Positions 389 to 64,000 of a DNA stretch of 64,000 nucleotides are shown here, piece by piece. Origin of the DNA: Rufibacter tibetensis (GTDB lineage Bacteria > Bacteroidota > Bacteroidia > Cytophagales > Hymenobacteraceae); the NCBI RefSeq assembly GCF_001310085.1, contig NZ_CP012643.1:1767001-1831000 (forward strand), in the 5' to 3' direction. The number at the start of each line of letters is the position of its first letter. The first letter of the stretch is position 1. Both the position numbers and the translations under genes were made by a program. The notes under the pieces were generated by a model. It ran no database searches. It had not been told where the DNA came from and saw only the letters and a program-made list of their open reading frames with translations.

Positions 389-441
389 AGAGAAGCCGTT
401 TAGTAGCCTCTTTCAGAAAAAGGCTGCCAAACGGCTTCTCT
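389..441. repeat. Intergenic palindrome, family copy 1
   Basis: Perfect 13-bp arms (389-401 and 429-441) enclose a second stem in which GCC and GGC flank a TTTCAGAAAA core. The T-rich side (CCGTTT) comes first and the A-rich side (AAACGG) second, the opposite of an intrinsic terminator. It lies 48 nt past the kynureninase stop, in the 277-bp gap 212-488, which otherwise shows nothing convincing. Confidence 0.75.
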
Positions 442-488
442 TACTTCAATGAAGGCCAAAGCGATTAACCTCCAGCCCTCACCTGTTT

Positions 489-1760
489 CTACTTGTTGAA
501 GTGGGCTGCTAGAAATTGGCCAAACCGGTGCACGTCTTCAAACGTGTTGTACATGGGTGTTGGCGCCACGCGGATGACGTTGGGCTCGCGCCAATCCAGG
601 ATGAAGCCGTTGGCCATAAGCGTTTCAAATAACTGCCTACCGTTCTGATGCACCAGCAATGAAAGCTGACAACCCCTAGCCGAGGGTTCTGCGGGAGTAA
701 TCACCTCCAGCGCCTCTTTGGGCTGGTTTAGTTCTTTGATCAGGAATTCAAGATAACCCGTGAGTCTTTCGCTTTTGGCCCACAGGTTCTCTATGCCGGC
801 CTCGTCAAAGAGCTCCAGAGAGGCTTTGTGCACGGCCATAGGCAGAATCTGGCCGTTGGAAAGCTGCCATCCATCGGCTCCAGGCATGGGAGTAAAGCCT
901 TTCTTCATCTGGAAGCGCACATTTTGATCATGGCCCCACCAACCGGCAAACCTTGGGATCTCCGGATTATGGGCGTGCCGCTCATGAATGAACACCCCAG
1001 AGGTTCCGCCCGGACCAGAGTTCAGGTATTTATAAGTACACCACACGGCAAAGTCCACATCCCAGTCGTGTAGTTGCATGGTTACGTTTCCGGCCGCATG
1101 GGCCAGGTCAAAACCACACAACGCACCTACCCCATGGGCTGCCTGCGTAATAGCGGCCATGTCAAACACCTGACCGGTGTAATAATTGACCCCGCCCATC
1201 ATCACCAAGGCCAATTCCTCGCCGTGCTGCTGAATGGTGTTGACAATGTCCTCGGTGCGCAGCGTGTGTTCGCCCGCTCGTGGAGCAACTTCTATGATGG
1301 CATCATCGGGCTGAAAGCCGTGGAATTTCACCTGGCTTTCCAGCGCGTACTGGTCTGATGGGAAAGCGCCGGCTTCGGTTAAAATCTTGTAGCGCTTTCC
1401 CTGCGGCCGATAAAAAGACACCAGCATGAGATGCAAGTTCACGGTCAATTGGTTCATGACCACCACCTCTTCAGGCTTGGCTCCCACTAATCGGGCGGTA
1501 GCTGGCGCTAAAGCGGCATGGTACGTAAACCAAGGGTTGTCACCCGTAAAATGTCCTTCCACCCCTAATTCTGCCCACTTTACCATTTCGTTTTCCAGGG
1601 CGGCTCTGGCCGATTTTGGTTGCAAGCCCAAGGAGTTTCCGCAGAGGTAAACAGTGTCTTTTCCGTTATGCTGCGGAATATGGTATTGGTCTCGGAAGGA
1701 ACGAAGCGGGTCTGCCTGGTCCTGTGATTGGGCGTAGGCAAGGGTATTTTGAAAAGACAT
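489..1760 (-). CDS. kynU: Kynureninase
   Basis: PLP-dependent hydrolase that cleaves L-kynurenine or 3-hydroxykynurenine to (3-hydroxy)anthranilate and alanine, in cytosolic tryptophan degradation. The 423 residues are the normal family length. The PLP lysine is Lys244 in the Thr-Tyr-Lys-Tyr-Leu-Asn-Ser-Gly-Pro-Gly-Gly motif; Asp218 and His221 in Gly-Phe-Asp-Leu-Ala-His-Ala fit the pyridine-nitrogen and phosphate contacts of the fold. The N-terminal Leu-Cys-Gly-Asn-Ser-Leu-Gly motif (residues 39-45) is typical of kynureninases. It lies 83 nt downstream of the ACMS decarboxylase gene on the same strand and has its own TAnnTTTG box at 1782-1789, so it may be transcribed both alone and with that gene. 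The next pathway steps are encoded nearby. Confidence 0.95.
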   Translation of the reverse strand: MSFQNTLAYAQSQDQADPLRSFRDQYHIPQHNGKDTVYLCGNSLGLQPKSARAALENEMVKWAELGVEGHFTGDNPWFTYHAALAPATARLVGAKPEEVVVMNQLTVNLHLMLVSFYRPQGKRYKILTEAGAFPSDQYALESQVKFHGFQPDDAIIEVAPRAGEHTLRTEDIVNTIQQHGEELALVMMGGVNYYTGQVFDMAAITQAAHGVGALCGFDLAHAAGNVTMQLHDWDVDFAVWCTYKYLNSGPGGTSGVFIHERHAHNPEIPRFAGWWGHDQNVRFQMKKGFTPMPGADGWQLSNGQILPMAVHKASLELFDEAGIENLWAKSERLTGYLEFLIKELNQPKEALEVITPAEPSARGCQLSLLVHQNGRQLFETLMANGFILDWREPNVIRVAPTPMYNTFEDVHRFGQFLAAHFNK

Positions 1761-1781
1761 GGAAGGTTAATTTGTAGAAAA

Positions 1782-1789
1782 CAAAAGTA
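1782..1789 (-). promoter_or_regulatory. Bacteroidota -7 promoter element for kynU
   Basis: TACTTTTG on the minus strand, a perfect TAnnTTTG match, ends 21 nt before the kynU ATG. I see no clear -33 TTG element, so this rests on the -7 box and its position. Confidence 0.5.
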
Positions 1790-1843
1790 AGAAGAAGCCT
1801 GATTTAATGTTCCAGCCTCTAGGGTATATAAAAGAACAGCCGT

Positions 1844-2899
1844 TTACGGACTTTGTTTGGTCTGCTGAAGCTTCTGCACCAGAAATCGCTCCTTCTCCAG
1901 CCCCAGCCATTGCAACGCCGAGCCGCTGAGCAGCATTTCCTTTACCTCATCAGAGTACGGCATGGACTGGATGAGTTTGCCCGGCTCCTGCTCGCCCAGT
2001 GGAAACGGGTAATCTGAGCCCAAAGCCACTTTGTCTGCCCCGAATTGCTTCACCACATAATCTAAGGTGTTGGGGCTATGCACAAGGGAATCTATCCAGA
2101 ACTTGCCCACGTAGTTTTTCGGCGGAACGGGGTTGTCTACGGCGCAAAGATCGGGGCGTACGTCAAACCCGTGCTGGATGCGTCCTAAAGTAAATGGGAA
2201 AGAACCTCCGCCGTGGGCAAACGCCAGCCGTAGGTTGGGCAACCGTTCCAACACGCCCCCGAAGATAAGCGAGCAGATGGCGCGGGAGGTCTCGGCGGGC
2301 ATGCTCACGAGCCAAGGCAGCCAATACTTGCGCATCTTCTTTTCGCCCATCATGTCCCAAGGGTGCACAAAGAGGGCAGCGCCTAAATCAGCGGCGGCTT
2401 CAAAGATGGGGAAGAGGGCCGCATCATCCAGGTTGGTATCGTTCACGTTGGAGCCGATCTGCACGCCAGCCAAGCCGAGTTCTTTGACGCAGCGCTCCAG
2501 TTCTTTGATGGCCAGATCGGTGTCTTGCATGGGCAAAGTTCCTAATCCCACAAACCGGGTCGGATAGCGGGCGACTACGCCGGCAATATGGTCGTTCAGG
2601 ATTTTGGAAAGGTCCCAGGTGTGTTCGGGCTTGGCCCAGTAGCTGAACATAACCGGCACGGTGCTTAATACCTGCACGTGCACGCCGTGCTGGTCGCATT
2701 CCCGCATCCGGGCGGTTGGGTTCCAGCTGTTTTCCTGGATTTCGCGGAAGAACCGGTCGTCCAGCATCATGCGGGCGCAGCAGGGCTTGTGGTGCTCCAA
2801 CCTGATGAATCCGCCGTACCCGTACCGTTCCCGCAGATCGGGCCACCTTTCCGGCAAGATGTGCGTGTGGATGTCTATTTTGAGCGGCTGGTGCAACAT
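1844..2899 (-). CDS. 2-amino-3-carboxymuconate-6-semialdehyde decarboxylase (amidohydrolase family)
   Basis: Metal-dependent decarboxylase (ACMSD) of the amidohydrolase-2 family. It converts 2-amino-3-carboxymuconate semialdehyde to 2-aminomuconate semialdehyde, diverting tryptophan carbon away from quinolinate. I start it at the ATG at 2897-2899, giving 351 residues: the product then opens with the metal motif Asp-Ile-His-Thr-His within 12 residues, as the family does. The longer reading frame up to 3022 adds 41 atypical residues. Further metal ligands are visible: His in Phe-Val-His-Pro-Trp-Asp, His in Ala-Phe-Ala-His-Gly-Gly-Gly, and Asp in Leu-Gly-Ser-Asp-Tyr-Pro-Phe-Pro. It sits upstream of kynU and is divergent from the putative aminomuconate deaminase, which supports ACMSD over a generic amidohydrolase. 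Confidence 0.88.
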
Positions 2900-3115
2900 G
2901 GAAGGCAGGACAAACTCGTAGGAACTGTTTCTCAACTTACGAAAACTCTTGCACATAGTCTTGCCTCGGGTTCCCACGGCCAGCGTTTTTCCCTTGATTT
3001 TGGCAAAACACGCTTGGAACACCCAACCGGCTTCTCCCTTTTACCTAAAATTCTCTGGCAGAAGAGCGGCAGGTTACATAAACTTACGGCATTCATTCAC
3101 CTTACTTCTACCAAC

Positions 3116-3499
3116 ATGGCTCGACAATTATTTTCTTCGGGAGCTCCCTGGGAAACCAGCGTGGGCTACTCCCGCGCCGTCAAAGTGGGCCCGCTTATTG
3201 AAGTGGCCGGCACTACCGCTGTGGAAAACGGACAGGTAGTAGGCCCCGGCGATGTTTATGCGCAAACAATCTGTATTCTGCAGAAAATTGAACGGGTCTT
3301 GCAGGAAGCCGGTGCATCGTTGCAAGACGTGGTGCGCACGCGCATGTTTGTGACCAATATAAGGCAGTGGGAAGAGGTAGGACGCGCCCATGGCGAGTTC
3401 TTCAAAGACATCAGGCCGGTGACCAGCATGGTAGAAATAAAAGCCTTGATAGACCCTGCTCTTTTGGTGGAAATAGAAGCCACTGCTTATCTTGATTAA
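3116..3499 (+). CDS. RidA/YjgF-family protein, putative 2-aminomuconate deaminase
   Basis: A 127-residue Rid-fold protein. The ATG at 3116 is preferred because the usual family N-terminus follows it at once; the longer open frame upstream crosses the divergent promoter region. RidA proteins hydrolyse enamine/imine intermediates. A distinct Rid group (NbaF/AmnD of pseudomonads) deaminates 2-aminomuconate, and the flanking ACMSD, dioxygenase and aldehyde dehydrogenase genes suggest that role here. The Ser-Met-Val-Glu-Ile and Val-Glu-Ile-Glu-Ala core of the family is present. The arginine that binds the substrate carboxylate in E. coli RidA (Arg105) is replaced by Thr103, so this is not an archetypal RidA. 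Function is inferred from context. Confidence 0.72.
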
Positions 3500-3501
3500 A
3501 T

Positions 3502-3541
3502 CTGTTTAGAGACACTTTTTCCAGAAGCAGCCTTAAAACAG
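3502..3541. repeat. Intergenic palindrome, family copy 2
   Basis: CTGTTT (3502-3507) pairs with AAACAG (3536-3541) around a TTTTTCCAGAA core followed by GCC. It starts 3 nt after the stop of the RidA-like gene. The polarity is T side first, A side second, as in the other copies. Confidence 0.65.
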
Positions 3542-4633: not shown

Positions 4634-5365
4634 ATGGGAAGAGCATTTGAGTTCCGGAAAGCCCGGAAAATGAAACGCTGGGACATGATGTCCAAGCAGT
4701 TCACCCGCATAGGGAAAGAAATTGTGATGGCTGTGAAATCTGGCGGCCCAGACCCAGACACCAACGCCCGTCTGCGCGTGTGCATCCAGAACGCCAAAGG
4801 GGTGAACATGCCCAAAGACCGCGTGGAAGCCGCCATTAAACGCGCCCAAGGCAAAGACGAGAATGATTACTCAGAGGTAGTATATGAAGGGTACGGTCCG
4901 CACGGCGTAGCTGTGCTGGTAGAAACCGCCACCGATAACGTGAACCGTACCGTGGCCAACGTGCGCATGCACTTCAACCGCACCGGTGGTGAGCTAGGCC
5001 GTACCGGCCAGTTCGACTTCATCTTTGAGCGCAAAGGCGTGTTCCATCTGAACGGTGAAGGCTTGGATATGGAAGAACTGGAACTAGACCTGATTGATTT
5101 CGGGCTGGAGAGCATTGACAAAGACGAAGAAGAAAACGAAATCATCATCCAAACTTCCTTCGCTGACTTTGGTGCCATGCAGAAAGCCCTGGAAGAGCGT
5201 GGCCTTAACGTGAAAAGTTCTGAGTTGCAGCGTTACCCTACCGTTCTGAAAGAACTTTCACCGGAGCAGCAGGAAGACATGACTAAGTTGCTGGACCGCC
5301 TTGAAGAAGACGATGACGTGCAGGCCGTGTACCACAACATGAAAGAAGACGCCGAAGACGAATAA
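4634..5365 (+). CDS. yebC: YebC/PmpR-family protein
   Basis: A 243-residue member of the YebC/PmpR family, long annotated as transcriptional regulators and more recently linked to translation of difficult (proline-rich) stretches. The ATG at 4634 gives the conserved opening Met-Gly-Arg-Ala-Phe-Glu-Phe-Arg-Lys of the Bacteroidota subfamily; the frame is open 30 nt further upstream, but no conserved residues lie there. Three domains can be followed: a basic N-terminal helical part (1-75), a central part with Tyr-Glu-Gly-Tyr-Gly-Pro-His-Gly-Val-Ala (about 88-97), and an acidic C-terminal domain. It is monocistronic and followed by a strong bidirectional terminator at 5408-5452. Confidence 0.9.
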   Translation: MGRAFEFRKARKMKRWDMMSKQFTRIGKEIVMAVKSGGPDPDTNARLRVCIQNAKGVNMPKDRVEAAIKRAQGKDENDYSEVVYEGYGPHGVAVLVETATDNVNRTVANVRMHFNRTGGELGRTGQFDFIFERKGVFHLNGEGLDMEELELDLIDFGLESIDKDEEENEIIIQTSFADFGAMQKALEERGLNVKSSELQRYPTVLKELSPEQQEDMTKLLDRLEEDDDVQAVYHNMKEDAEDE

Positions 5366-5367: not shown

Positions 5368-5415
5368 CTGTTTGGTGCGTGTTTTCTTAAAACAGCTTCA
5401 AAAAAACATAAACAG
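5368..5415. repeat. Intergenic palindrome, family copy 3, overlapping a terminator
   Basis: CTGTTT (5368-5373) and AAACAG (5410-5415) flank a perfect inner GTTTTCTTAAAAC palindrome (5381-5393). It begins 3 nt after the yebC stop. Its right arm is shared with the left arm of the terminator at 5408-5452, so the two structures compete. Confidence 0.6.
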
Positions 5416-5452
5416 AGAGGCCCGCTTCTAAAAAGCGGGCCTCTCTGTTTAT
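5408..5452. terminator. Strong bidirectional intrinsic terminator
   Basis: Perfect 20-bp arms (5408-5427 and 5433-5452) with a GC-rich centre and a 5-nt loop, A-rich on the left and T-rich on the right. It separates yebC (plus) from the convergent STAS-like gene (minus). Confidence 0.88.
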
Positions 5453-7445: not shown

Positions 7446-7534
7446 AAAAGTAGCGTTTGAGTACAGAATGCGTCTTTGATTTCAATCAGAGACTGCTCCA
7501 AGGTACGAAACCTCCTGCAGAAAAGATAGGCGCC

Positions 7535-7570
7535 GCTTTGAAGCCGTTTTCAGAAAAGCAGCCCTGAAAC
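7535..7570. repeat. Intergenic palindrome, imperfect family copy 4
   Basis: GCTTTGAAGCC, a central GTTTTCAGAAAA and GCAGCCCTGAAAC reproduce the core and GCC/AAAC parts of the family, but the arms are imperfect. This copy lies in the divergent promoter region between the dioxygenase and SDR genes, so the family is not limited to gene ends. Confidence 0.45.
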
Positions 7571-7611
7571 ACCCATTCCGCTGATCCATAATAATCTGTA
7601 CATTTACCTCT

Positions 7612-8928: not shown

Positions 8929-10371
8929 ATGCTGCACCTCCAGAACTACATCAACGGTACTTTCCTAGCACCAGTATCCGGAGCCTATCTGCCCAATATC
9001 AATCCAGCCACCGGAGAGGTATACTCGCAAATTCCTGATTCTGATGAGCGTGATGTGCAGGCAGCAGTGGAAGCAGCGCAGGCAGCGTTTCCAGCATGGT
9101 CTGCGTTTTCTGCGGAGAAACGGGGCCGTTTTCTGATAAAGTTGTCAGAACTGATTGACCAGAACTTAGAACGCCTGGCCAAAGCGGAGACCACCGACAA
9201 CGGCAAACCGCTTTCGCTCTCCAGAACCGTTGACATTCCTAGGGCCAGCAGCAACCTGTATTTCTTCGGGACAGGCGTGCAACACTTCGCCTCAGAGGCC
9301 CATTCCATGGAAGGTGTGGCGGTGAACTATACGGTGCGTAAACCTTTAGGCGTGGTGGCCTGTATTTCCCCGTGGAACCTTCCGCTGTATCTCTTCACCT
9401 GGAAGATTGCCCCCGCCCTGGCTGCCGGGAACTGCGTGGTGGCTAAACCTTCGGAGATCACGCCGTACACTGCCCATCTACTAGCTGAACTTTGTGTAGA
9501 AGCAGGTTTACCCGCGGGGGTACTGAACATCGTGCACGGTACCGGTCCAAAAGCAGGAGCTGCCATGTGCGAGCACCCCGAGGTCAAGGCCATCTCTTTC
9601 ACTGGCGGCACCCAAACTGGCAAAACTATCGCGCGCACGGCTGCGCCGATGTTCAAGAAATTGTCCCTGGAACTGGGCGGCAAGAACGCCACTGTCATCT
9701 TCGCAGATTGTGATTTCGAGAAAACGGTGAGCACCGCCTTGCAGGCTGCCTTTGCGAACCAAGGACAGATCTGCCTCTGCGGCTCACGCATTCTGGTGGA
9801 GCGCCCGCTGTATGACCGTTTCAAGGCTGCTTTTTTGGAAAGAGTCAAAAATCTGACCGTAGGCGATCCGATGGAGGAAGGCTCCCGGATGGGCGCGCTT
9901 GTTTCAGAGGTGCATCTACAAAAAGTGCAGAACTACATCGCTTTGGCGCAGGAAGAAGGTGGCACGCTGCTCACCGGCGGCGAACGGGTGTACATGAAAG
10001 GACGCTGTGCCAACGGCTACTTCCTGCAACCCACCGTTTTTGAAGGCCTTCCCCACACCTGCCGCACCAACACCGAGGAAATCTTCGGACCGGTAGTCAC
10101 GTTGATGCCGTTTGATACTGAGGAAGAGGCCCTCACCTATGCTAATTACACGCAATATGGGTTAGCGGCCTCCGTTTGGACGCAAGACCTCACCCGTGCC
10201 CACCGGGTGGCGCATCAACTGCAATCGGGTATTGTATGGGTTAATACCTGGTTGCTTCGGGATTTGCGTACCCCGTTTGGCGGCACCAAACAAAGTGGCG
10301 TGGGTCGTGAAGGCGGCTGGGAAGCCCTGCGCTTTTTCACCGATCCGCAGAATGTGTGCATCAAGCTATAG
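8929..10371 (+). CDS. Aldehyde dehydrogenase, probable 2-aminomuconate-6-semialdehyde dehydrogenase
   Basis: NAD(P)-dependent aldehyde dehydrogenase of 480 residues from the ATG at 8929; a TTG nine bases upstream is an unneeded alternative. Active-site residues are Asn150 (Pro-Trp-Asn-Leu-Pro), Glu248 (Leu-Glu-Leu-Gly-Gly-Lys) and Cys282 (Gly-Gln-Ile-Cys), and the cofactor motif is Phe-Thr-Gly-Gly-Thr-Gln-Thr-Gly. In this cluster the expected substrate is 2-aminomuconate semialdehyde released by ACMSD, giving 2-aminomuconate for the RidA-like deaminase. The family is broad, so substrate assignment rests on context; betaine-aldehyde-like or hydroxymuconic-semialdehyde dehydrogenases look alike. 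It ends the plus-strand part of the kynurenine block. Confidence 0.88.
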   Translation: MLHLQNYINGTFLAPVSGAYLPNINPATGEVYSQIPDSDERDVQAAVEAAQAAFPAWSAFSAEKRGRFLIKLSELIDQNLERLAKAETTDNGKPLSLSRTVDIPRASSNLYFFGTGVQHFASEAHSMEGVAVNYTVRKPLGVVACISPWNLPLYLFTWKIAPALAAGNCVVAKPSEITPYTAHLLAELCVEAGLPAGVLNIVHGTGPKAGAAMCEHPEVKAISFTGGTQTGKTIARTAAPMFKKLSLELGGKNATVIFADCDFEKTVSTALQAAFANQGQICLCGSRILVERPLYDRFKAAFLERVKNLTVGDPMEEGSRMGALVSEVHLQKVQNYIALAQEEGGTLLTGGERVYMKGRCANGYFLQPTVFEGLPHTCRTNTEEIFGPVVTLMPFDTEEEALTYANYTQYGLAASVWTQDLTRAHRVAHQLQSGIVWVNTWLLRDLRTPFGGTKQSGVGREGGWEALRFFTDPQNVCIKL

Positions 10372-10374
10372 CTT

Positions 10375-10410
10375 GTTTAAAGGCTACTTTCTGCAAATCT
10401 GGCCTAAAAC
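10375..10410. repeat. Intergenic palindrome, family copy 5
   Basis: GTTTAAAGGC (10375-10384) pairs imperfectly with GGCCTAAAAC (10401-10410) around ACTTTCTGCAAAT. It begins 4 nt after the aldehyde dehydrogenase stop. Confidence 0.6.
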
Positions 10411-10483
10411 GAACGTTTTTAAGCCTGCTCCCTATCCAAAATAAATGCCTAATTTTAAGGCTACGAACTATCAAACAAACCGA

Positions 10484-12703: not shown

Positions 12704-12739
12704 AAAACGCCAGCCTTTTTGAAGGGCTGGCGTTTTTTT
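12704..12739 (+). terminator. Intrinsic terminator of the peptidase gene
   Basis: Twelve-bp arms AAAACGCCAGCC (12704-12715) and GGCTGGCGTTTT (12725-12736), a 9-nt loop and a T run, 21 nt past the stop codon. Confidence 0.9.
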
Positions 12740-12806
12740 ATCTACTAGACATTACTGTTTCAAGCTTCATTTCAGGGAATGGGTGCAAAACAGCTTATAT
12801 AGCTAC

Positions 12807-13113: not shown

Positions 13114-14076
13114 CTATCCTCTGAAACTAGCTCGTTGTAGTCGGTCATTGATAGCTCGACCTAACCCCTGCTCAGGCATCCATTCAGCTAAAATCACATC
13201 TACTGGTTGCTGATCTAGAGCACGAAGGGCAGAGAAAAGATTACGGGCAGCTTCGCTTAAGTTACCGGAAGCAGAGAGTTGGATTTGCTGCTCACGTGAA
13301 ACTTCAGGAAATACCTGCTGCAAAGAAATGATGCCTACCCGGGCAGAATCTGTTTTCAGCAGGTTTTCGGCAATATTGCCTAAAAGCACCTTTTTACGGG
13401 GCGAGTAATGGCTGCTGAGCATGCCAGGGGCAGCAGGGTTGGAAGATGAGGTTTTCACCTGTGCTTTGGAGATTTGAACTACTTCCTCTAGTTCTTCCAA
13501 AGCCAATCCGCCTAACCGAAGCACCTCCACTTCATTTCCATTTATTCTAATGATCGTAGACTCTATCCCGACGGCACAATCTCCGCCATTTAAGATATAA
13601 GGAATTCTTTCTCCTAACTGATCCTGCACATGCTGGGCAGTAGTGGGGCTCACATACCCAAATGGGTTGGCACTAGGCGCAGCTACCGGGAAAGGCAACT
13701 GCCTCAGCAAGTCTAATGTGAGCGGATGATTAGGGATTCGCACCCCAACTGAATCATGGCCGGAGGTAACTAATAGCGGCACCTGCTCGGCTTTGGGTAA
13801 AATGAGCGTTAAAGGACCAGGCCAGAACCGTTCGGCCAACAAATAAGCGGCGTCCGGCACTTCCTGCACAATATTGCTGATCTCAGAAACAGAATGGGTG
13901 TGTACGATGAGCGGATCAAAGGCGGGCCGGTTCTTGGCCTCAAATATTTTCACCACGGCGGCCTCATCATAGGCATTGGCTGCAAGGCCATACACGGTTT
14001 CTGTGGGAATGGCGACTAATTCGCCTTGCGTTAAATATGCTGCGGCTTTCTGTAAATCTATGCCGATATCTGCCAT
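13114..14076 (-). CDS. sua5: Threonylcarbamoyl-AMP synthase (Sua5 type)
   Basis: Makes threonylcarbamoyl-AMP from threonine, bicarbonate and ATP for the t6A modification at position 37 of ANN-decoding tRNAs. From the ATG at 14074-14076 it has 320 residues; seven further codons are open upstream but look unconserved. The YrdC domain (about 1-200) shows Gly-Glu-Leu-Val-Ala-Ile-Pro-Thr-Glu-Thr-Val-Tyr-Gly-Leu and Lys-Asn-Arg-Pro-Ala-Phe-Asp-Pro-Leu, the nucleotide and carbamoyl-binding motifs. After a linker comes the Sua5 C-terminal domain with Ser-Ser-His-Tyr-Ser-Pro. That two-domain form distinguishes Sua5 from the short TsaC. Confidence 0.92.
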   Translation of the reverse strand: MADIGIDLQKAAAYLTQGELVAIPTETVYGLAANAYDEAAVVKIFEAKNRPAFDPLIVHTHSVSEISNIVQEVPDAAYLLAERFWPGPLTLILPKAEQVPLLVTSGHDSVGVRIPNHPLTLDLLRQLPFPVAAPSANPFGYVSPTTAQHVQDQLGERIPYILNGGDCAVGIESTIIRINGNEVEVLRLGGLALEELEEVVQISKAQVKTSSSNPAAPGMLSSHYSPRKKVLLGNIAENLLKTDSARVGIISLQQVFPEVSREQQIQLSASGNLSEAARNLFSALRALDQQPVDVILAEWMPEQGLGRAINDRLQRASFRG

Positions 14077-14179
14077 GTCTGTAGAATGATTCCGCAAAGC
14101 TACTACGGTTCTCCTTCACATACACCTACTTGAGGGAAAGCCTACGGTGTTTTCAGATTATTTTTCTGTAAAGAGCCAA

Positions 14180-14217
14180 AAACAAGAAGCCCTGCGGCAA
14201 GGCAGGGCTTCTTGTTT
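14180..14217. terminator. Intrinsic terminator downstream of the cysteine desulfurase gene
   Basis: Perfect 16-bp arms (14180-14195 and 14202-14217), AAACAAGAAGCCCTGC and complement, with a 6-nt loop and A/T runs on both sides. On the minus strand it follows the desulfurase stop by 22 nt and precedes sua5, so the two genes are separate units. Confidence 0.88.
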
Positions 14218-17119: not shown

Positions 17120-17159
17120 TTGGTTCTGCTGTGTTTTTGTAAAACTGGCCTAAAACCAA
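17120..17159. repeat. Intergenic palindrome, family copy 6
   Basis: TTGGTT (17120-17125) pairs with AACCAA (17154-17159) around GTTTTTGTAAAAC (17133-17145) and GGCC. It lies in the 677-bp divergent gap 16873-17549. That gap is AT-rich and holds this copy, the next copy and the two flanking promoters; I see no gene in it. Confidence 0.6.
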
Positions 17160-17397: not shown

Positions 17398-17443
17398 AAC
17401 CTGTTTTATGCTTGCTTTTTCTAAAACAGCAGAAAAACAGGTT
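17398..17443. repeat. Intergenic palindrome, family copy 7
   Basis: AACCTGTTTT (17398-17407) and AAAACAGGTT (17434-17443) are perfect 10-bp arms around GCTTTTTCTAAAACAGC. Same T-then-A polarity as the other copies. Confidence 0.7.
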
Positions 17444-24369: not shown

Positions 24370-24423
24370 AATAAAGGCATAAAAAAACTCCTCTTTATAG
24401 AGGAGTTTTTTTATGCCTTTATT
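24370..24423. terminator. Very strong bidirectional terminator
   Basis: Perfect 25-bp arms (24370-24394 and 24399-24423) around a 4-nt loop, with seven A on the left and seven T on the right of the inner stem. It separates the TPR gene from convergent rluD. Confidence 0.9.
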
Positions 24424-24467: not shown

Positions 24468-24527
24468 AACCCAAACTGGTAAGACCAAATGAACTGTGCT
24501 ATTCATTTGGTCTTACCAGTTTGGGTT
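24468..24527. repeat. Second long perfect hairpin between convergent genes
   Basis: Perfect 26-bp arms (24468-24493 and 24502-24527), starting AACCCAAACTGGTAAG, with an 8-nt loop and no flanking T run. It is unrelated in sequence to the terminator 44 nt away. It could be a backup terminator or a stability element. Confidence 0.75.
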
Positions 24528-25711: not shown

Positions 25712-25742
25712 GCGCTTTTGATGTGTTTTCCAAAATCTACCA

Positions 25743-25750
25743 CAAAAATA
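25743..25750 (-). promoter_or_regulatory. -7 promoter element of rluD
   Basis: TATTTTTG on the minus strand, 31 nt before the ATG. It overlaps the edge of the terminator of the upstream skp gene. Confidence 0.4.
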
Positions 25751-25786
25751 AAGAGCCGGTAACGATATACGTCACCGGCTCTTTAT
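25748..25786 (-). terminator. Terminator at the end of the skp operon
   Basis: Thirteen-bp perfect arms (25748-25760 and 25774-25786), ATAAAGAGCCGGT and complement, 13-nt loop, T run on the minus strand. It lies 22 nt past the last skp stop. Confidence 0.85.
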
Positions 25787-35563: not shown

Positions 35564-35584
35564 AGAAGATAAAACTCAGTTTTA

Positions 35585-37400: not shown

Positions 37401-37470
37401 TGCTACACCTTTCTTTTTTAACTCATTTTCTGAAAACTGGCCTCAGAACGCACTTTAGCCCCTGCAGTTC

Positions 37471-38049: not shown

Positions 38050-38057
38050 AACAGACC
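38034..38057. repeat. Palindrome, family copy 9, overlapping a stop codon
   Basis: Perfect 10-bp arms GGTCTGTTTT (38034-38043) and AAAACAGACC (38048-38057) with loop CTGT. The coding stop at 38047-38049 lies in the loop and right arm, so the element supplies the last residues of the upstream protein. Confidence 0.7.
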
Positions 38058-38091
38058 AAAACCATACCTCGCACGCTAATCCTGCCAAACT

Positions 38092-39683: not shown

Positions 39684-39734
39684 AAGCCGTAACCTTCCAG
39701 AAGTTTACTAATAACCTCTGGAAGGTTACGGCTT
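39684..39734 (-). terminator. Intrinsic terminator, minus-strand T run
   Basis: Perfect 18-bp arms (39684-39701 and 39717-39734), AAGCCGTAACCTTCCAGA and complement, 15-nt loop. The T run is on the minus strand, so it serves the EnvC-like gene, with palindrome copy 10 between. Confidence 0.8.
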
Positions 39735-39746: not shown

Positions 39747-39794
39747 CTCTCCGTTTTAGGGCACCTTTTCAGAAAGGCGCCCTAAAACGGAGAG
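39747..39794. repeat. Intergenic palindrome, family copy 10 (textbook example)
   Basis: Perfect 16-bp arms CTCTCCGTTTTAGGGC (39747-39762) and complement (39779-39794), with an inner CCTTTTCAGAAAGG stem. It ends 3 nt before the EnvC-like stop codon. It shows all parts of the family: outer arm, GTTTTAGGGC, TTTTCAGAAA and GCCCTAAAAC. Confidence 0.85.
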
Positions 39795-44768: not shown

Positions 44769-44808
44769 CGGTTTTGAGGCTATTTCTCCTAAAATATAGT
44801 AAAAACCG
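44769..44808. repeat. Intergenic palindrome, family copy 11
   Basis: CGGTTTT (44769-44775) and AAAACCG (44802-44808) enclose GAGGC and TATTTCTCCTAAAATA. It lies between dut and the nucleotidyltransferase gene, 12 nt after the dut stop. Confidence 0.5.
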
Positions 44809-46843: not shown

Positions 46844-46904
46844 TACGCTTACTCCCGTTTGAAGCCTGTTTTCTGTAAACAAGCTTCAAACGGGAGTAAG
46901 CGTA
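46844..46904. repeat. Intergenic palindrome, family copy 12 (longest arms)
   Basis: Perfect 22-bp arms (46844-46865 and 46883-46904), TACGCTTACTCCCGTTTGAA onward and complement, around CTGTTTTCTGTAAACAA. It sits between the flippase start and the crotonase gene. Confidence 0.85.
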
Positions 46905-48391: not shown

Positions 48392-48443
48392 CTAAAACGA
48401 GAAAGCCCCATTTACTTCTGTAAATGGGGCTTTCTCGTTTTAG
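48392..48443. terminator. Strong terminator, perfect 24-bp stem
   Basis: Perfect arms (48392-48415 and 48420-48443), CTAAAACGAGAAAGCCCC onward, loop TTCT. A side first and T side second, so terminator polarity. The rest of the 417-bp gap to infB holds only AT-rich sequence and one more hairpin. Confidence 0.88.
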
Positions 48444-48740
48444 TGGCGTTTTCATAAATCAAGCGCGAAACTGAACTACTCTATCTACTTTTTGATGCTG
48501 CTACTCCTGCTATCAGCAAAACATCTACAGGATAAGTAAACATACTTCTATTTTAAATAGCTGGTGCGTTTGAAGGAAGCCATCAGAAACCTTAATTAAG
48601 TCACTGGCGGTTCTGCTTCAACACACTGCACCGTAAAAGTCACTTTTGTGATTTATAAATTCAAATACCAGCACGATATACACTTCTGATTATAACCAGT
48701 TTTTAGAAAAAAACCCAAAATCAAAATCAGGCTAAACAAA

Positions 48741-52140: not shown

Positions 52141-52225
52141 GTTCAAATATGCTGTTATAATTTACTTTTAGTAGTTACTTGTTTCTTACTCATTGATAAG
52201 GATGGGGTGGCCATGACGACTTCGC

Positions 52226-52260
52226 GTTTTTGCCCTATATCCCGGAAAACAGGCCAAAAA
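52226..52260. repeat. Intergenic palindrome, imperfect family copy 13
   Basis: GTTTTTGCC (52226-52234) and GGCCAAAAA (52252-52260) with AAAAC between. A weak family match in the nusA-infB gap (52141-52313). Confidence 0.35.
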
Positions 52261-52313
52261 TATGGCACCCACCCTCCAGTAAGGTCAAATAACCCGGCAC
52301 ATAAAGCGCACCA

Positions 52314-54421: not shown

Positions 54422-54468
54422 ATGATTTAAGCCTTCTTTTCAGGAAAATAGCCCGAATCAAAAATAGA

Positions 54469-56867: not shown

Positions 56868-57033
56868 CTTTCGTTTACTTATTTAGACTTGTTATAAACA
56901 GTTGCAAGGTACAAGGTGTTCCTAATGAATCCAAAAAGAACCCGAGGTTTCGTGTTCTGGCCAATTACTAGCACTCTTTTTGCTTATATTTCTACTGACT
57001 TTTGCTTAATTTTCGTAAAAACAAACTAAAAAC

Positions 57034-57783
57034 ATGTCACTTTTCAGTTCTAACAACCCTGCTCTAAAAGAGGAGGCTTTTATACAATCAGCGACTCCTC
57101 AGACCCTGGATGGACCTGCCATGACCCTGAACGGCACCATTGCCAAGTCGGCTTTGCTGCTGGGGATAGTCTTAGTCTTTGCGGTTTTCTCCTGGGACCT
57201 GTTCACCCTGATGGGTGTGCCACTACCGTTCCTGGTTTCTATTCCGTTAGTTGGGGTAGGCCTGGCTTTCCTGCTAGTTTTTAAGAAAGAATGGGCCGCC
57301 TACATTGCTCCTATTTACTGCGCGTTGCAAGGTCTGTTTCTGGGCGGAATCTCAGGCATTCTGGAGGCGAAGTTCCCGGGCATTGCTACGCAAGCCATGC
57401 TGTTGACCTTTACGGTTTTCGGCGGCATGTTGCTGCTTTACAGCACCCGCATCATCAGAGCTACCGAGCGGTTTAAGTCTATTGCCATGACGGCCACCTT
57501 TGGAATCTTCTGCTACTACATGCTGGGGTTCATTCTGCAGTTCTTTGGGGTAGAGATGGCCTTGATTCACAGCAGCGGCACGGCTGGCATTATCTTCAGT
57601 GTGCTGGTAGTGATCATTGCGGCCATGAACCTGATCATGGATTTTGACACCATTGAACAAGGCGTAGCTTACGGAGCTCCTAAAAACATGGAGTGGTACG
57701 CTGCCTTCGGACTGGCGGTGACCTTAATCTGGCTCTACATTGAAATTCTGCGGCTGCTTTCTAAGCTGAACAGCCGTAACTAA
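57034..57783 (+). CDS. Bax inhibitor-1/YccA-family membrane protein
   Basis: A 249-residue protein with seven hydrophobic helices from about residue 35 to 245 and a short polar N-terminus. BI-1/YccA proteins are calcium-leak channels or modulators of membrane proteases. Bacterial YccA binds FtsH. The long form with Phe-x-x-Ile-Glu-Gln-Gly-Val-Ala-Tyr-Gly-Ala-Pro-Lys-Asn-Met-Glu-Trp is typical of the Bacteroidota branch. It is divergent from feoA and monocistronic. Confidence 0.9.
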   Translation: MSLFSSNNPALKEEAFIQSATPQTLDGPAMTLNGTIAKSALLLGIVLVFAVFSWDLFTLMGVPLPFLVSIPLVGVGLAFLLVFKKEWAAYIAPIYCALQGLFLGGISGILEAKFPGIATQAMLLTFTVFGGMLLLYSTRIIRATERFKSIAMTATFGIFCYYMLGFILQFFGVEMALIHSSGTAGIIFSVLVVIIAAMNLIMDFDTIEQGVAYGAPKNMEWYAAFGLAVTLIWLYIEILRLLSKLNSRN

Positions 57784-57957: not shown

Positions 57958-57987
57958 AAAACGCCACTGAAGCTTCAGTGGCGTTTT
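57958..57987. terminator. Perfect palindromic terminator
   Basis: Perfect 15-bp arms with no loop spacer (57958-57972 and 57973-57987), AAAACGCCACTGAAG and complement, with T run. It ends the BI-1 side of the convergent pair with murF-alr. Confidence 0.85.
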
Positions 57988-58095
57988 TGTTTCTGGTTAC
58001 CAGCATAACCTTTGCTAATGAGTTATCTTATCTATTTCGGAAAAGGCAAGAAAAGCTATTTTAAGAGTCACTTCCTCAAAACCAGCCCCTAAACA

Positions 58096-60567
58096 CTACT
58101 CATTAAAGAACACCCGCTTCACCCGGGTACTTACGTTGGTGAGCAGTTCATACGGAATGGTGCCGATGCGGGAAGCCAGTTCCGTGAGCGGCAGTTCTTC
58201 GCCAAACACCAGTACCTCATCGCCAGCGCGTACGTCAAGACCTGTCACATCTACCATGCACATGTCCATGCACACATTCCCAATGATGGGAGCCCGTTGC
58301 CCGTTAATCAGCACCACACCCACCCCGTTCCCGAAGCGCCGGTCATAACCATCGGCGTAACCAATAGCGATAGTGGCGGTTTGCTTATCGGTAGCCGCAA
58401 TGCCACGGCGGCTGTACCCTATCGTTTCACCTGCTTTTATGTATTTCACCTGCGAAACAGTGGTTTTCAATTGGCCTACCGTCAGCAGATTACCCTGCTC
58501 CTGCCCCGCAGATTCTATCCCGTACAAACCAATACCTAAACGCACCATGTCAAAAGCGGCCTTTTCTCCGAACCGCACGATGCCTGCTGAGTTGAGAATG
58601 TGCTTGGTCACAGAATAGCCCAGTGCCTTCTCTACCTGAGTCGCCATCTGCTTGAATTGCGTGATCTGCTCTTGAGAGAAATCATTGTACAGGGCTTCAT
58701 CGGCGCCGGCCAGGTGACTGAACACGCTTTGCACCCGCACGTGCGGCATATGGTCCAGCACTTCCAATGCTTCTTCCAATTCAGACGGGTTAAACCCGAG
58801 GCGGTGCATGCCGGTATCCAGCTTAAGGTGAATGCGAGGCGTTTTGGAGCTCTTTTTGGGGAAATAGTCCAGAAACCGATGTAGCAGATCTGGGGAGTAG
58901 ATCTCAGGTTCCAGGCTGTACTGCCGCATTTTCAGGAAACTGTCTGGGCTGGGGTTCATGACCATGATGGGCAGCGTGATGCCGTGCTCCCGCAGGGCAA
59001 TGCCCTCATCGGCGTAGGCCACAGCAAGATAATCCACCCGCTGAAACTGCAGAAGGTTGGCAATCTCATAGGCGCCTGCGCCGTAAGCAAAGGCTTTCAC
59101 CATAACCATTATTTTTACCCGGGCAGGCACTTTGGTGCGGTAATAATTAAGGTTGTGTACCAAGGCATCCAGGTTTACTTCCAACTTGGTGCCGTGAATT
59201 TGCTGCTGCAGCGCGGCCACGATCTTCTCAAACTGGAACACGCGGGCGCCTTTCACCAAAATGGTTTCCTGCCGGAACGTCTCGGAGCGGAGTTGTCCCA
59301 GAAACGAATCGGTGCCCAGGTAGAACTCGCTGCCGGCGGGGAACAAATCCTGATGCCGGGTAATGATGTCGCCAATACCGATGACGCGGTCCACACCCCG
59401 GGAGGTGATTTCCTGCGCCACCTGTTGGTAGAGCGCAGTTTCTTCCACCCCGGCCTCCAGCAGGTCAGAGACAATTAAAGTCTTACGACCGCGGCGGGCT
59501 TGTTGTCCCAGCACATCTAACGCGATGCGCAGACCGGCCAAATCATTATTATAGGTATCGTCAATGACGTAGCAGCCGTTGATGGCTTCTTTGCGCTCCA
59601 AACGCATGGCTACGGGGTGCAGGCGTTCAAAGCGACCTAGTAATTCTTCGGGTTTTACGCCCAGGTACAGCAGAACCGCTAAGCAGTGCAGGGCGTTTTC
59701 CAGCGAAGCTTCATCAGCGAAAGGCAGGGTAAAGTCCTGCCCTTTCCCGTTGTACCGGAACCGGATTCTGGTTTTACCATGGTGCATCTCCAATACTTTG
59801 AGCTGCACCTGCGCTGCAGGGTGTTCATGGGTGCTCCACGCAAAACCAGGTAAGCCCGTGACTTGAATCACCTCCTGCACAGGTTTCTGATCGGCACAAT
59901 AAATCAACTGGTTAACGTGCTCAAACAGCTTCAGCTTTTCTTCCAGCTTTTGGGTTGGAGAAATGAAACCTTCGTCATGCGCCGAACCCAAGTTGGTAAA
60001 CACTCCAATGGTAGGCTGCAGCACGCTGGCCAGATGCTCCATTTCATCTGGTTTTGAAATTCCGGCCTCAAAAACTCCAACGGTATGGCTTTCATTAATC
60101 TGCCACACAGAGAGCGGCACGCCAATCTGGGAGTTATAGCTGCGGGGGCTTTTCACCACCCGTTCAGAAGCGCTTAACAGCTGCGCCAGCCATTCTTTGA
60201 CAATGGTTTTGCCGTTGCTGCCCGTGATCCCGATGACCGGGATGGCAAACTTCCGGCGGTGATAGGCGGCCAGACGTTGCATGGCGTGAATGCTATCACT
60301 GACCAACAGCACATTGGCCTCAGGCAGCGTAGACAAGTCCATTACGCCTGAGGCATCTTCCACCACAAACTGCCGCACACCGGCGGCGTAGAGTTCTGGA
60401 ATGTATTGGTGCCCGTCATGGAATTCACCCCGGATGGCGAAAAACACCGAAGAAACGGCATTGGCTATTTTACGGCTATCGGTGAGCAGGTGCTGCACAG
60501 GATACGTTGCCTTGCACTGCACCAGCATGCCTCCCACTACCTGGGCAATCTCTTTAAAAGTAAACAT
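58096..60567 (-). CDS. murF-alr: Bifunctional MurF ligase / alanine racemase
   Basis: An 823-residue fusion of two peptidoglycan enzymes. Residues 1 to about 450 are MurF, which adds D-Ala-D-Ala to the UDP-MurNAc-tripeptide: ATP loop Gly-Ile-Thr-Gly-Ser-Asn-Gly-Lys-Thr (113-121), Tyr-Asn-Ser-Gln-Ile-Gly-Val-Pro-Leu. From about 455 on is alanine racemase with PLP Lys491 (Val-Lys-Ala-Phe-Ala-Tyr-Gly; the usual Asp after Ala is Phe) and the catalytic tyrosine in Ile-Gly-Tyr-Ser-Arg-Arg-Gly. It makes D-Ala for its own partner pathway. The fusion is characteristic of many Bacteroidota. A perfect -7 element lies at 60587-60594. Confidence 0.95.
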   Translation of the reverse strand: MFTFKEIAQVVGGMLVQCKATYPVQHLLTDSRKIANAVSSVFFAIRGEFHDGHQYIPELYAAGVRQFVVEDASGVMDLSTLPEANVLLVSDSIHAMQRLAAYHRRKFAIPVIGITGSNGKTIVKEWLAQLLSASERVVKSPRSYNSQIGVPLSVWQINESHTVGVFEAGISKPDEMEHLASVLQPTIGVFTNLGSAHDEGFISPTQKLEEKLKLFEHVNQLIYCADQKPVQEVIQVTGLPGFAWSTHEHPAAQVQLKVLEMHHGKTRIRFRYNGKGQDFTLPFADEASLENALHCLAVLLYLGVKPEELLGRFERLHPVAMRLERKEAINGCYVIDDTYNNDLAGLRIALDVLGQQARRGRKTLIVSDLLEAGVEETALYQQVAQEITSRGVDRVIGIGDIITRHQDLFPAGSEFYLGTDSFLGQLRSETFRQETILVKGARVFQFEKIVAALQQQIHGTKLEVNLDALVHNLNYYRTKVPARVKIMVMVKAFAYGAGAYEIANLLQFQRVDYLAVAYADEGIALREHGITLPIMVMNPSPDSFLKMRQYSLEPEIYSPDLLHRFLDYFPKKSSKTPRIHLKLDTGMHRLGFNPSELEEALEVLDHMPHVRVQSVFSHLAGADEALYNDFSQEQITQFKQMATQVEKALGYSVTKHILNSAGIVRFGEKAAFDMVRLGIGLYGIESAGQEQGNLLTVGQLKTTVSQVKYIKAGETIGYSRRGIAATDKQTATIAIGYADGYDRRFGNGVGVVLINGQRAPIIGNVCMDMCMVDVTGLDVRAGDEVLVFGEELPLTELASRIGTIPYELLTNVSTRVKRVFFNE

Positions 60568-60594: not shown

Positions 60595-60785
60595 CAACAG
60601 AAGAAATACTACCGCACCCTGCCCTGGAAAAGGAGTCGCTAAGTCGTAGAAAGCGCTTTTGTGCTGTTTTCTGAAAAAGAAGCTAAAAAAGACTGACATG
60701 AGAAGCAGACAAGCAGTTTAACTTTTCAGAACCACAGATTATAGGCAGAACCGGCTGTGAATTAGGCAGTACGCTAAGCAACTTC

Positions 60786-62261: not shown

Positions 62262-62273
62262 GTTCTACCCTAT

Positions 62274-62325
62274 CCCTCTAAATCAGAAAACCCGCAGCAT
62301 GCTGCGGGTTTTCTGATTTAGAGGG
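62274..62325. terminator. 52-bp perfect palindrome, terminator-like
   Basis: Arms of 26 bp (62274-62299 and 62300-62325) with no loop spacer, centred on GCATGC, starting CCCTCTAAATCAGAAAACCC. It begins 12 nt after the second stop of the lipoprotein. The rest of the gap to 62543 is AT-rich with only a weak palindrome near 62347-62385. Confidence 0.8.
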
Positions 62326-62543
62326 TTCTACTAGCAATGGACGATCCGTTTTTTAGTTACTTTTATAAAATAGCCTCAAATCAAAGAGCCAATCTTCGTT
62401 TGCCGTTATGGAAAATAGGCAAAGAGTTCAGCTCATCCTTTTCCAGAAGTATTTTACTTCCAAGCCCCTCAGTATAAAGCAAATTTAATAATTTCAGCCA
62501 CCCACAAGTCTTACCCTAGCTGCCACCTAACTTTTATTGTCTC

Positions 62544-63869
62544 ATGAAGAAGTCTTGGTTTAGAAGTCTGCTTTTCCTTTGTATTGCTGTTCTTCCCCTT
62601 TCCTGCGCGCAGGACAATTCTCCGGCTTCGGCTATTCAGGCTCCTGAGGTTTCGACGAAGGCCATTAAAGTAGAAGTGCGAAAAGAGGACGGTCGTTTTC
62701 AATTATACAGAGGCGGAAAACCCTACTTCATTAAAGGTGCCGGCGGGAACCGTTATATGGACCGATTGGCAGCATACGGCGGTAACTCCATTAGAACCTG
62801 GAGCACTCATTATGGGCAACAAATACTGGACGAGGCGCACAACCACGGCTTGACGGTGACCATGGGCTTGGATGTGGCACGCGAACGGCACGGCTTTGAC
62901 TATAATAACACTGAGGCGGTGGCCAAACAACTCGCCAAACTCCGCGAAGAGGTGATGAAGTACAAAGATCATCCGGCTTTGCTGGTGTGGGGCATCGGGA
63001 ATGAACTGAATCTAAGCTACTCCAATCCCAAAGTTTGGGATGCGGTAAATGATATCGCCAAGATGATTCATGAAGTAGATCCCAACCATCCGACCAGCAC
63101 TATGCTGGCGGGTCTCAACAAAAAGGAAGTAGACTACATCAAAGCGCAGGCTCCGGCAATAGACCTGTTGTCCATCAATGCCTACGGCGATCTACCTTCT
63201 ATTCCGGGCAAGGTTAGGGAGTTTGGCTGGGAGGGCGCCTACATGATTACGGAGTGGGGACCAACTGGCCATTGGGAAAGACCACAAACCCCCTGGAAAG
63301 CCTCAGTGGAGGAAACCAGTTCTGAGAAAGCCGCTGTGTACCGCAGCCGCTATGAGGCTACCATGAAAAAAGACAGTGAGCGCTGCCTGGGTTCCTATGT
63401 GTTCCTTTGGGGACAGAAGCAGGAAAGAACGCCCACCTGGTACGGCCTCTTCACCGAGCAAGGCGAAGAATCTGAAGTAGTAGATGTCATGCACTATCTC
63501 TGGTCAGGCCAATGGCCCCAGAACCTGGCCCCGCACCTCAGCTACCTGCACCTGGACGGGAAAAAAGCCACGGACAACATCTACCTGAAACCCAACCAAA
63601 GTTACCCTATCCAGACCGAGGTCACCGATCCGGATCAGGATGCACTCACCTACCGCTGGGAGTTACTGCCTGAAAGCACTGACCTCAAAGAAGGCGGCGA
63701 TGCCGAAAACAGACCCAGTGCTATCTCTGGCCTTTTACAAGACAGAGGCAAAGGGAAGGCGACGTTAGAGGCTCCGGAAAAGGAAGGTGCTTACCGGCTG
63801 TTTGTGTATGCGTATGACGGAAAAAACAACGTAGCCACGGCCAACACTCCTTTTTTTGTAAAACAGTAA
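62544..63869 (+). CDS. Lipoprotein glycoside hydrolase (TIM-barrel, clan GH-A-like)
   Basis: A 441-residue exported enzyme with lipobox Leu-Pro-Leu-Ser-Cys, lipid cysteine Cys21. The TIM barrel (about 50-330) begins Tyr-Phe-Ile-Lys-Gly-Ala-Gly-Gly-Asn. It has the clan GH-A pair: acid/base Glu154 in Gly-Ile-Gly-Asn-Glu-Leu and nucleophile Glu237 in Ile-Thr-Glu-Trp-Gly-Pro-Thr. A Gly-Asn-Ser-Ile-Arg-Thr-Trp segment follows strand 2. A C-terminal beta-sandwich (about 345-441) with Val-Thr-Asp-Pro-Asp-Gln-Asp-Ala-Leu resembles cadherin/PKD-type modules. It probably acts on glucan or a similar polysaccharide at the outer membrane. The exact GH family (GH2-like, GH5 or GH17-like) is not certain. 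No SusC/D genes are adjacent. Confidence 0.82.
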   Translation: MKKSWFRSLLFLCIAVLPLSCAQDNSPASAIQAPEVSTKAIKVEVRKEDGRFQLYRGGKPYFIKGAGGNRYMDRLAAYGGNSIRTWSTHYGQQILDEAHNHGLTVTMGLDVARERHGFDYNNTEAVAKQLAKLREEVMKYKDHPALLVWGIGNELNLSYSNPKVWDAVNDIAKMIHEVDPNHPTSTMLAGLNKKEVDYIKAQAPAIDLLSINAYGDLPSIPGKVREFGWEGAYMITEWGPTGHWERPQTPWKASVEETSSEKAAVYRSRYEATMKKDSERCLGSYVFLWGQKQERTPTWYGLFTEQGEESEVVDVMHYLWSGQWPQNLAPHLSYLHLDGKKATDNIYLKPNQSYPIQTEVTDPDQDALTYRWELLPESTDLKEGGDAENRPSAISGLLQDRGKGKATLEAPEKEGAYRLFVYAYDGKNNVATANTPFFVKQ

Positions 63870-63952
63870 AACCTTCTTTACGCTCGTTTTCTGAATAGAT
63901 GGTTCGAAACGATAATCTTTAGCCAACCGTCTTTGCCTTAACAAGAGAAAGC

Positions 63953-64000
63953 CTCCGGGTATTTGGGCAGTTTTTATGAAAACGGCCCAAATACCCGGAG
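63953..64000. repeat. Intergenic palindrome, family copy 14 (cut by the window end)
   Basis: Perfect 16-bp arms (63953-63968 and 63985-64000), CTCCGGGTATTTGGGC and complement, around GTTTTTATGAAAAC. The arms may continue beyond the window. Confidence 0.75.

Follow-up and report, generated by a model that had tools for sequence, protein, structure and literature searches.

A 38-bp palindromic site numerous across Rufibacter, a candidate double-stranded protein-binding site near transcription-unit ends

The DNA-uptake sequences (DUS) of Neisseria and the uptake signal sequences (USS) of Haemophilus are short and asymmetric. Fis, MatP, ParB and Noc are dimeric proteins with palindromic double-stranded sites at many chromosomal places. 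The bacterial interspersed mosaic elements (BIMEs) of E. coli known as BIME-2 include gyrase cleavage sites, according to an excerpt of PMC6379681. Here, we describe a family of palindromic sites in a 64,000-nt stretch of the Rufibacter tibetensis chromosome (contig NZ_CP012643.1, positions 1,767,001 to 1,831,000; hereafter, the window), in which a first-pass annotation had listed 14 copies. A symmetric half-site matrix was built from the genome's own sites, and its refined form was used for coordinates and bit scores. The window contained 37 sites at ≥14 bits, 30 of them at ≥20 bits, the level at which individual sites are reported below. All 14 listed copies were present among the 37, each at ≥20 bits. 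The first-pass annotation was right in describing palindromes that are dispersed, mainly intergenic and conserved at their core, that do not resemble the classic repetitive extragenic palindromic (REP) elements, and of which many copies are close downstream of stop codons.

The 38-bp site consists of a 17-nt half, yGTTTtnagsCTgtTTT (outer to inner), a 4-nt centre and the mirror half. Within each half, a short G/C stretch separates two T tracts spaced by about 11 bp, and the information lies mainly at positions 2–5, 11–12 and 15–17. When centres of 3, 4 and 5 bp were scored at 12 bits, 443 sites were found, with a centre of 4 bp in 321, 3 bp in 112 and 5 bp in 10. The unit is thus palindromic with a preferred centre of about 3–5 bp, and isolated half sites numbered 134, compared with 61 in shuffles and with the 443 full sites. 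Outside the 17-nt halves, 1–3 weaker positions extend the site on each side in the relatives, comprising one G/C position and an A-rich step. The site holds about 23 bits of information, which exceeds the roughly 11 bits that, by our own arithmetic, would specify 2,700 places in 5.4 Mb.

The excess of the site over shuffled sequence, which the first-pass annotation had anticipated for the rest of the genome, was found there. A first matrix, applied to 831.5 kb of the genome, gave 349 sites at ≥14 bits, whereas a locally shuffled control gave 0 and a third-order Markov control gave 4; at 20 bits, it gave 242 sites and both controls gave 0 (each control count being that of one randomised sequence). 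In the whole genome, a pattern with three mismatches allowed gave 31 forward and 34 reverse matches, some of which are one place read on both strands, compared with 0 and 0 for the reversed pattern. With the refined matrix, 784 kb of chromosomal sequence contained 406 sites above the 14-bit threshold, of which 290 also reached 20 bits, corresponding by extrapolation to ≈2,700 and ≈1,900 sites, respectively, on the 5.17-Mb contig. One site was present in the 40 kb read from the second contig (235 kb), and three in the third contig (7.5 kb). The low-G+C chromosome stretches L082, L091 and L080 (0.37–0.42), perhaps acquired DNA, appeared to have fewer strong sites. Rfam gave no match above the gathering score in the window. 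No account of the Rufibacter palindrome was found in the literature searched, which was one library judged mostly by title, and the available portion of the RepRanger text (PMC12306157) does not contain the word Rufibacter.

Among the genomes searched, with patterns that follow the Rufibacter consensus and would miss other dialects elsewhere, the site is numerous across Rufibacter and restricted to that genus. The family search covered 120 genomes sampled out of a larger group, including 16 Rufibacter, and the phylum search covered 296. A pattern of 18 fixed bases with up to two mismatches gave 527 matches here and 716–2,124 in the 15 other Rufibacter (control 0–3), compared with 0–5 in 104 genomes from the rest of the family (control 0–2). 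The pattern matched 0–7 times in 10 genomes of other families of the order (control 0–3), and with at most one mismatch there were 0–1 matches in the 295 other genomes of the phylum, compared with 190 here (control 0–2). The genus was assigned from named murF-alr relatives at 80–91% identity, one of which is filed as Sabulibacter ruber; the next relatives were at 63%. Dyad counts in 66–80 kb from each of five other genera did not reveal the Rufibacter dyad, and the dyads that did appear were either AAAA-N-TTTT (terminator-like) or weak. In three other genera, the top intergenic dyad was AAAA-N26..28-TTTT, presumably representing bidirectional terminators of uniform length. The 24 stretches of IMG/VR viruses had one palindromic place each, which we took to be background.

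The positions of the sites are conserved between species. When 20 window gaps were compared with those of the 15 other Rufibacter, the 12 gaps that have a site here had one in 143 of 149 syntenic gaps, whereas the eight gaps without a site had one in only 10 of 113. At seven single-site loci, the pairwise identity of the flanks was 0.54 adjoining the site and fell to 0.35 at 41–45 nt, and half-site positions 4, 15 and 16 were at 0.98–0.99, although the picking of rows by the matrix biases these tract values upward. In the divergent gap upstream of murF-alr (site 60654–60691, 30.8 bits; site in 14 of 15 relatives), the flanks hardly align, and the T/A tracts are kept in most of the 16 species; the region is absent in one species and the right half of the site in another. 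The murF-alr fusion gene itself (58096–60567, minus strand) has an internal site at 58840–58877 (29.3 bits), which 15 of the 16 Rufibacter have at the equivalent position. The corresponding loop in 16 outgroup sequences is variable and 1–2 codons shorter, with no 38-bp gap, and as judged from this alignment the site is not a 38-bp insertion. The gene combines Mur ligase and alanine racemase domains in one protein, and named relatives, mostly from the Cytophagales, align over nearly the full length.

The consensus itself differs between species. In the 13–27 sites sampled per relative, position 7 was T in every site of two species (G007 and G013), position 13 was C at 0.90 in G012, and in G005 position 6 was A at 0.69 and position 7 was G at 0.78. 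These dialects look as if a recognition surface had shifted. In 10 of the 16 species, letters specific to the locus were kept more than letters specific to the species, with orthologous sites resembling each other more closely than did other sites within the species, whereas the reverse was seen in G001, G006, G007, G008, G012 and G013, with 3–15 site pairs each. No two sampled sites within one species were identical (386 sites here, with the closest pair sharing 33 of 36 positions; 13–28 per relative).

We analyzed the placement of the sites relative to genes called with our own codon-score caller, which misses some genes; gaps of less than 30–40 bp were left out of the gap counts. At 12 bits, the first matrix placed 90 sites within called genes and 279 in gaps; convergent gaps had 4.05 sites per kb, tandem gaps 2.51 and divergent gaps 1.58. 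Sites occupied 243 of the 435 gaps of ≥40 bp. According to the twin-domain model, positive supercoils gather in convergent gaps. Coding sites outnumbered those in synonymous-codon shuffles at thresholds of 16, 20 and 25 bits (80, 42 and 16 sites, compared with 9.25, 2.45 and 0.25, respectively), and 64 of the 349 sites were at least 20 bp inside well-scored genes. Of 16 tandem gaps in which a terminator stands apart from the site, 12 have the terminator ahead of it. Separate intrinsic terminators were found in 16/52 convergent gaps with a site and 4/14 without, and in 16/122 and 7/89 tandem gaps, respectively. Terminators were present in 74/113 convergent gaps here and 19/28 in the five other genera, and in 51/261 and 17/86 tandem gaps, respectively. 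We considered the possibility that the site replaces intrinsic terminators, and rejected it, since separate terminators were neither displaced nor attracted.

The first-pass annotation had described the arms as fully complementary within each copy, as expected if the folded structure is selected. This was overstated, but comes close for four copies: 389 (site 397–433, 20.8 bits; hairpin 389–441), 39747 (site 39752–39789, 30.5 bits; hairpin 39747–39794), 46844 (site 46856–46892, 28.3 bits; hairpin 46844–46904) and 63953 (site 63958–63995, 26.5 bits; hairpin 63953–64000), in which 14–16 of 17 arm positions pair (14 of 17 at 389) and the paired flanks are longer. In the other ten copies, however, only 9–12 of 17 positions pair, largely through the constant T/A tracts; copy 38034 has a perfect 10-bp inner stem, and the outer arm of copy 17398 is paired over 4 bp. 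An initial alignment of 28 copies had 75.4% of its cells paired, compared with 72.0% in shuffles. We then scored pairing at the flexible positions of sites with a 4-bp centre, in this genome and in 302 sites of the relatives that include mutual orthologs. Coding sites paired at chance level (z = −0.5, n = 64 in this genome; z = −0.6, n = 23 in the 15 relatives), as did sites in divergent gaps (z = 0.1 with n = 44 here, and z = −0.2 with n = 25 in the relatives), indicating that the arms are independent in these two classes. Selection for the folded structure thus lacks support as a rule of the family, although the other intergenic sites, described below, show an excess of pairing and include a minority of full hairpins.

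Full hairpins are an additional property of a minority of copies. Between 15 and 17 of the 17 arm positions pair in 19 of 349 sites here, all of them intergenic and outside divergent gaps, and in 52 of 302 sites in the relatives. Compensatory changes in the outer arms, also anticipated in the first-pass annotation, were seen between species at the 46844 hairpin (TTACTCC/GGAGTAA, CTACTCC/GGAGTAG and CTGCTCC/GGAGCAG), where a site is present in 14 of 14 syntenic relatives. The longest run of pairs at this locus was 7–12 in 10 of 15 species and 0–5 in G001, G002, G006, G012 and G013. Thus, the view of the family as covarying hairpins stands for that part of it. At 39747, sites are kept in the gap in 15 of 15 relatives.

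The conservation of position without general pairing, the palindromic unit, the T tracts spaced one turn apart and the occurrence of sites in genes together point less to RNA hairpins or a mobile repeat than to a double-stranded site for a DNA-binding protein. This agrees with one of the possibilities raised in the first-pass annotation. We consider it somewhat probable that the palindrome is the sequence-specific site of a putative dimeric protein, used genus-wide, with a role in architecture or boundary formation near the 3' ends of transcription units. The protein, its dimeric state and its role are candidates only. Given the two T tracts ≈11 bp apart in each half, a protomer would probably contact two successive helical turns, with the two halves opposed across the 4-bp, sometimes 3-bp, centre. 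Bound dimers might then mark or bridge points near transcription-unit 3' ends, serving nucleoid architecture or as boundaries, while the full-hairpin copies probably double as a terminator or 3'-end stem.

Several observations weigh against this interpretation. The intergenic sites outside divergent gaps paired more often than expected, both in this genome (0.421 vs. 0.380, z = 4.5, n = 241) and in the relatives (0.583 vs. 0.549, z = 4.7, n = 254), and 26 of 174 gaps with a site (convergent, 19 of 52; tandem, 7 of 122) have a terminator-like hairpin that overlaps it. Conservation of a coding site was seen at murF-alr only; four more coding sites at 33–64 kb of the window, scoring 16–20.5 bits, were each present in one species only. 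The bias from convergent through tandem to divergent gaps could merely reflect where a 38-bp site is tolerated. The spacing of sites was no more even than gap occupancy predicts (coefficient of variation 0.766 vs. 0.799, standard deviation 0.044); an apparent evenness under a simple null (0.97 vs. 1.11) disappeared under the gap-occupancy null, and even spacing was rejected as a property of the family. No gradient from origin to terminus was seen by eye in 37 stretches. Thus, no chromosome-scale pattern backs an architectural role. Nor was there any expansion of ParB (PF02195), HU (PF00216) or HU-HIG (PF18291) proteins in eight Rufibacter compared with nine other genomes. Finally, the positional conservation, the dialects and the scarcity of sites on the second contig also fit a drive by uptake signals. 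Separately, we noted a full-length HU-HIG protein in G012 (C1:1936694-1937047), a Rufibacter with a dialect of its own, that is absent from the other seven tested; full-length HU-HIG also occurs in two Hymenobacteraceae of another genus.

More tentatively, and with some doubt on our part, the palindrome could be a chromatin mark of Rufibacter's own, in which a putative protein reads an extrapolated ≈1,900–2,700 sites of 38 bp near transcription-unit ends, with a code that has drifted into dialects and sites that have been rewritten genome-wide. To our knowledge, no bacterial factor is known to have a site of this length in such number. If true, a long site kept in place across one genus and rewritten together in some species would document the joint evolution of a DNA-binding protein and an entire chromosome. 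Two questions could then be addressed directly, namely how the ends of transcription units are marked in Rufibacter, and by what routes DNA signals of genome-wide extent originate and shift from one dialect to another. As bait, the site could be used to capture its protein.

The main rival to the protein-site interpretation is a signal for DNA uptake or self-recognition of the DUS or USS type, read by a receptor and spread by preferential uptake or recombination. We regard this as unlikely, although much of the evidence suits it. The unit is a 38-bp palindrome of which isolated halves are rare, unlike the short, asymmetric DUS and USS, and its spacing, no more even than that of the occupied gaps, does not speak for an uptake signal either. 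Over-representation, clade specificity and conservation at orthologous positions, all features of DUS and USS, were found in the Rufibacter site; a short single unit occurring alone was not (134 vs. 61 isolated halves). The hundreds to thousands of copies, confined to one genus among the genomes searched, and the single site in 40 kb of the second contig also suit such a signal. Species dialects, and copies that double as terminator-like hairpins, have been described for DUS (PMC3630211, in part), and in an excerpt of PMC2397512 the signal is reported to be kept in permissive parts of the core genome.

The site might instead be an RNA element, either a bidirectional terminator or an mRNA 3'-end stabilizer, selected for its fold and with the unpaired copies as by-forms. 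Such an element would explain the long perfect or near-perfect hairpins at 389, 39747, 46844 and 63953, the outer-arm co-variation at 46844, the above-chance pairing outside divergent gaps, the relatives' 52 sites with 15–17 of 17 pairs and the overlap with terminator-like hairpins in convergent gaps. However, the excess of pairing is small where it exists and lacking in coding and divergent sites, the fold is weak in most of the 14 copies of the first-pass annotation, separate terminators are about equally common with or without a site, and terminators occur about as often in the five other genera as here. A paired stem followed by a U tract, as in an intrinsic terminator, was found in a minority of copies and not as a rule of the family. 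We therefore consider the RNA element improbable.

The first-pass annotation had also suggested a transposase-mobilized hairpin, and we considered a mobile palindrome family, whether REP elements with their REP-associated tyrosine transposase (RAYT), miniature inverted-repeat transposable elements or an ancient burst of insertion, now mostly inherited vertically. The copies are dispersed, intergenic and palindromic, some species look homogenized, and among the matches listed for G005 some 36-nt copies are repeated without change at two or three positions. The genome has one match to Y1_Tnp (PF01797), around 187 kb of its first contig (G000 C1, L130), with two sites of the Rufibacter family 0.4–0.8 kb from the gene; they lie within a 3.2-kb locus, one of them 25 nt beyond that gene's palindrome, although a density of two sites per 3.2 kb is close to average. 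A different palindrome stands on both sides of the gene, and the REP/RAYT candidate was rejected because this sole Y1_Tnp match is flanked by the GCTGGCGCGAGC-type palindrome and not by the 38-bp site. The agreement of position in 143 of 149 gaps, the variable murF-alr loop that differs by 1–2 codons with no 38-bp gap in 16 outgroup sequences, and the lack of an identical pair among the sampled sites of any one species likewise disfavor mobility, as does the presence of 64 of 349 sites in genes, unlike the extragenic REP elements. A mobile family thus appears slightly less probable still than an RNA element. The palindrome of the RAYT-like gene is GC-rich (GCTGGCGCGAGC / GCTCGCGCCAGC) and represents a separate REP family.

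Preference of a type IIA topoisomerase, either gyrase or topoisomerase IV, for the palindrome would suit the dyad, the bias to convergent gaps, the 4-bp centre and the ≈36 constant bp; in an excerpt of PMC6379681, the E. coli gyrase motif has a 4-bp stagger and a central part of similar size. We consider this very improbable, as that same motif is described there as degenerate, each of 10 genomes has two PF00521 genes with no extra copy in Rufibacter, and the GyrA-type protein has no Rufibacter-only fixed difference or insertion (the ParC-type protein has L61F, V228F and a 3-residue insertion, fixed in five Rufibacter vs. five others). The flanks of 596 sites show no clear 10-bp G/C phasing, the strongest periods being 7–9 bp.

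Site 2984–3021 (26.5 bits) is at the 5' end of a called gene (1844–3022, minus strand), and site 3503–3540 (30.1 bits) is between called genes, 3 bp past the end of an open reading frame (2678–3499, plus strand) that was dropped by the gene caller. Sites 5369–5405 (29.6 bits) and 10374–10411 (33.5 bits) start 3 bp past the stop of a YebC-like gene (4634–5365) and 2 bp past a stop codon, respectively. Within genes, sites are found at 9817–9854 (24.9 bits; aldehyde dehydrogenase, 8929–10371) and 13351–13388 (24.4 bits; Sua5 family, 13114–14076). Divergent gaps contain sites 17121–17157 (26.1 bits), 17402–17439 (33.0 bits) and 56997–57034 (23.1 bits; site in 7 of 11 syntenic relatives), while tandem gaps contain 14148–14185 (22.7 bits), 25713–25749 (20.6 bits) and 62347–62383 (28.1 bits; site in 2 of 2). 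In convergent gaps are sites 12756–12792 (20.3 bits), 58058–58095 (21.8 bits; site in 12 of 13) and the pair 48436–48472 (26.0 bits) and 48687–48723 (25.6 bits), which share a gap that has sites in 11 of 11 syntenic relatives. The copies at 7535 and 52226 had been called weaker, but scored above several of those called good (7534–7571 in a divergent gap, 34.4 bits; 52225–52262, 27.6 bits, with a site kept in 10 of 10 syntenic relatives).

Among the other conserved gaps, site 35454–35491 (22.6 bits; arms 15 of 17) shares its gap with site 35527–35564 (23.0 bits), and at least one site is present there in 15 of 15 relatives. A site is likewise kept in all 15 relatives in the gaps of 37413–37450 (23.0 bits) and of 44770–44807 (25.7 bits; one site, with arms 10–13 of 17), and in 13 of 13 syntenic relatives sites are kept in that of 54423–54461 (21.5 bits). 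Site 38027–38064 (22.3 bits) overlaps the end of gene 37471–38049 and has the inner palindrome only; its gap lacks a site of 14 bits in every one of the 15 relatives, and also as cut here. The window also contains ten strong hairpins of other sequence (5408–5452, 12704–12736, 14180–14217, 24370–24423, 24468–24527, 25748–25786, 39684–39734, 48392–48443, 57958–57987 and 62274–62325), several of which end in A and T tracts like bidirectional intrinsic terminators.

Compared with known systems, the Rufibacter site resembles those of Fis, MatP, ParB and Noc in being palindromic, double-stranded and present at many chromosomal places, and differs from them in its extrapolated 1,900–2,700 copies, its ≈23 bits and its confinement to one genus, with no accompanying expansion of ParB or HU. 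With REP and BIME elements and their RAYTs it shares a palindrome mostly outside genes, but the T/A-tract consensus, the sites in genes, the genus-wide positions and the other palindrome beside Y1_Tnp set it apart. HIP1 of the cyanobacteria is likewise a clade-wide, hyper-abundant palindrome with another form in some species (PMC4390886, in part); it is an 8-bp contiguous palindrome tied to methyltransferases, whereas the Rufibacter site is long, bipartite and degenerate with a variable centre. The DUS of Neisseriaceae and USS of Pasteurellaceae, as far as the excerpts of PMC3630211 and PMC2397512 describe them, are also clade-restricted, very numerous, conserved in permissive DNA and divided into dialects, with some terminator-like inverted pairs. 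In Rufibacter, by contrast, the unit is a dyad of 38 bp in which each half carries two T tracts, lone halves are rare, and the sites are mostly intergenic. Since the site lacks the single unit of DUS and USS, the short palindrome of HIP1 and the association with a transposase of REP elements, it falls outside these families, and on its sequence features we class it as a clade-specific iterated DNA signal, whose nearest kinds are DUS/USS and HIP1.

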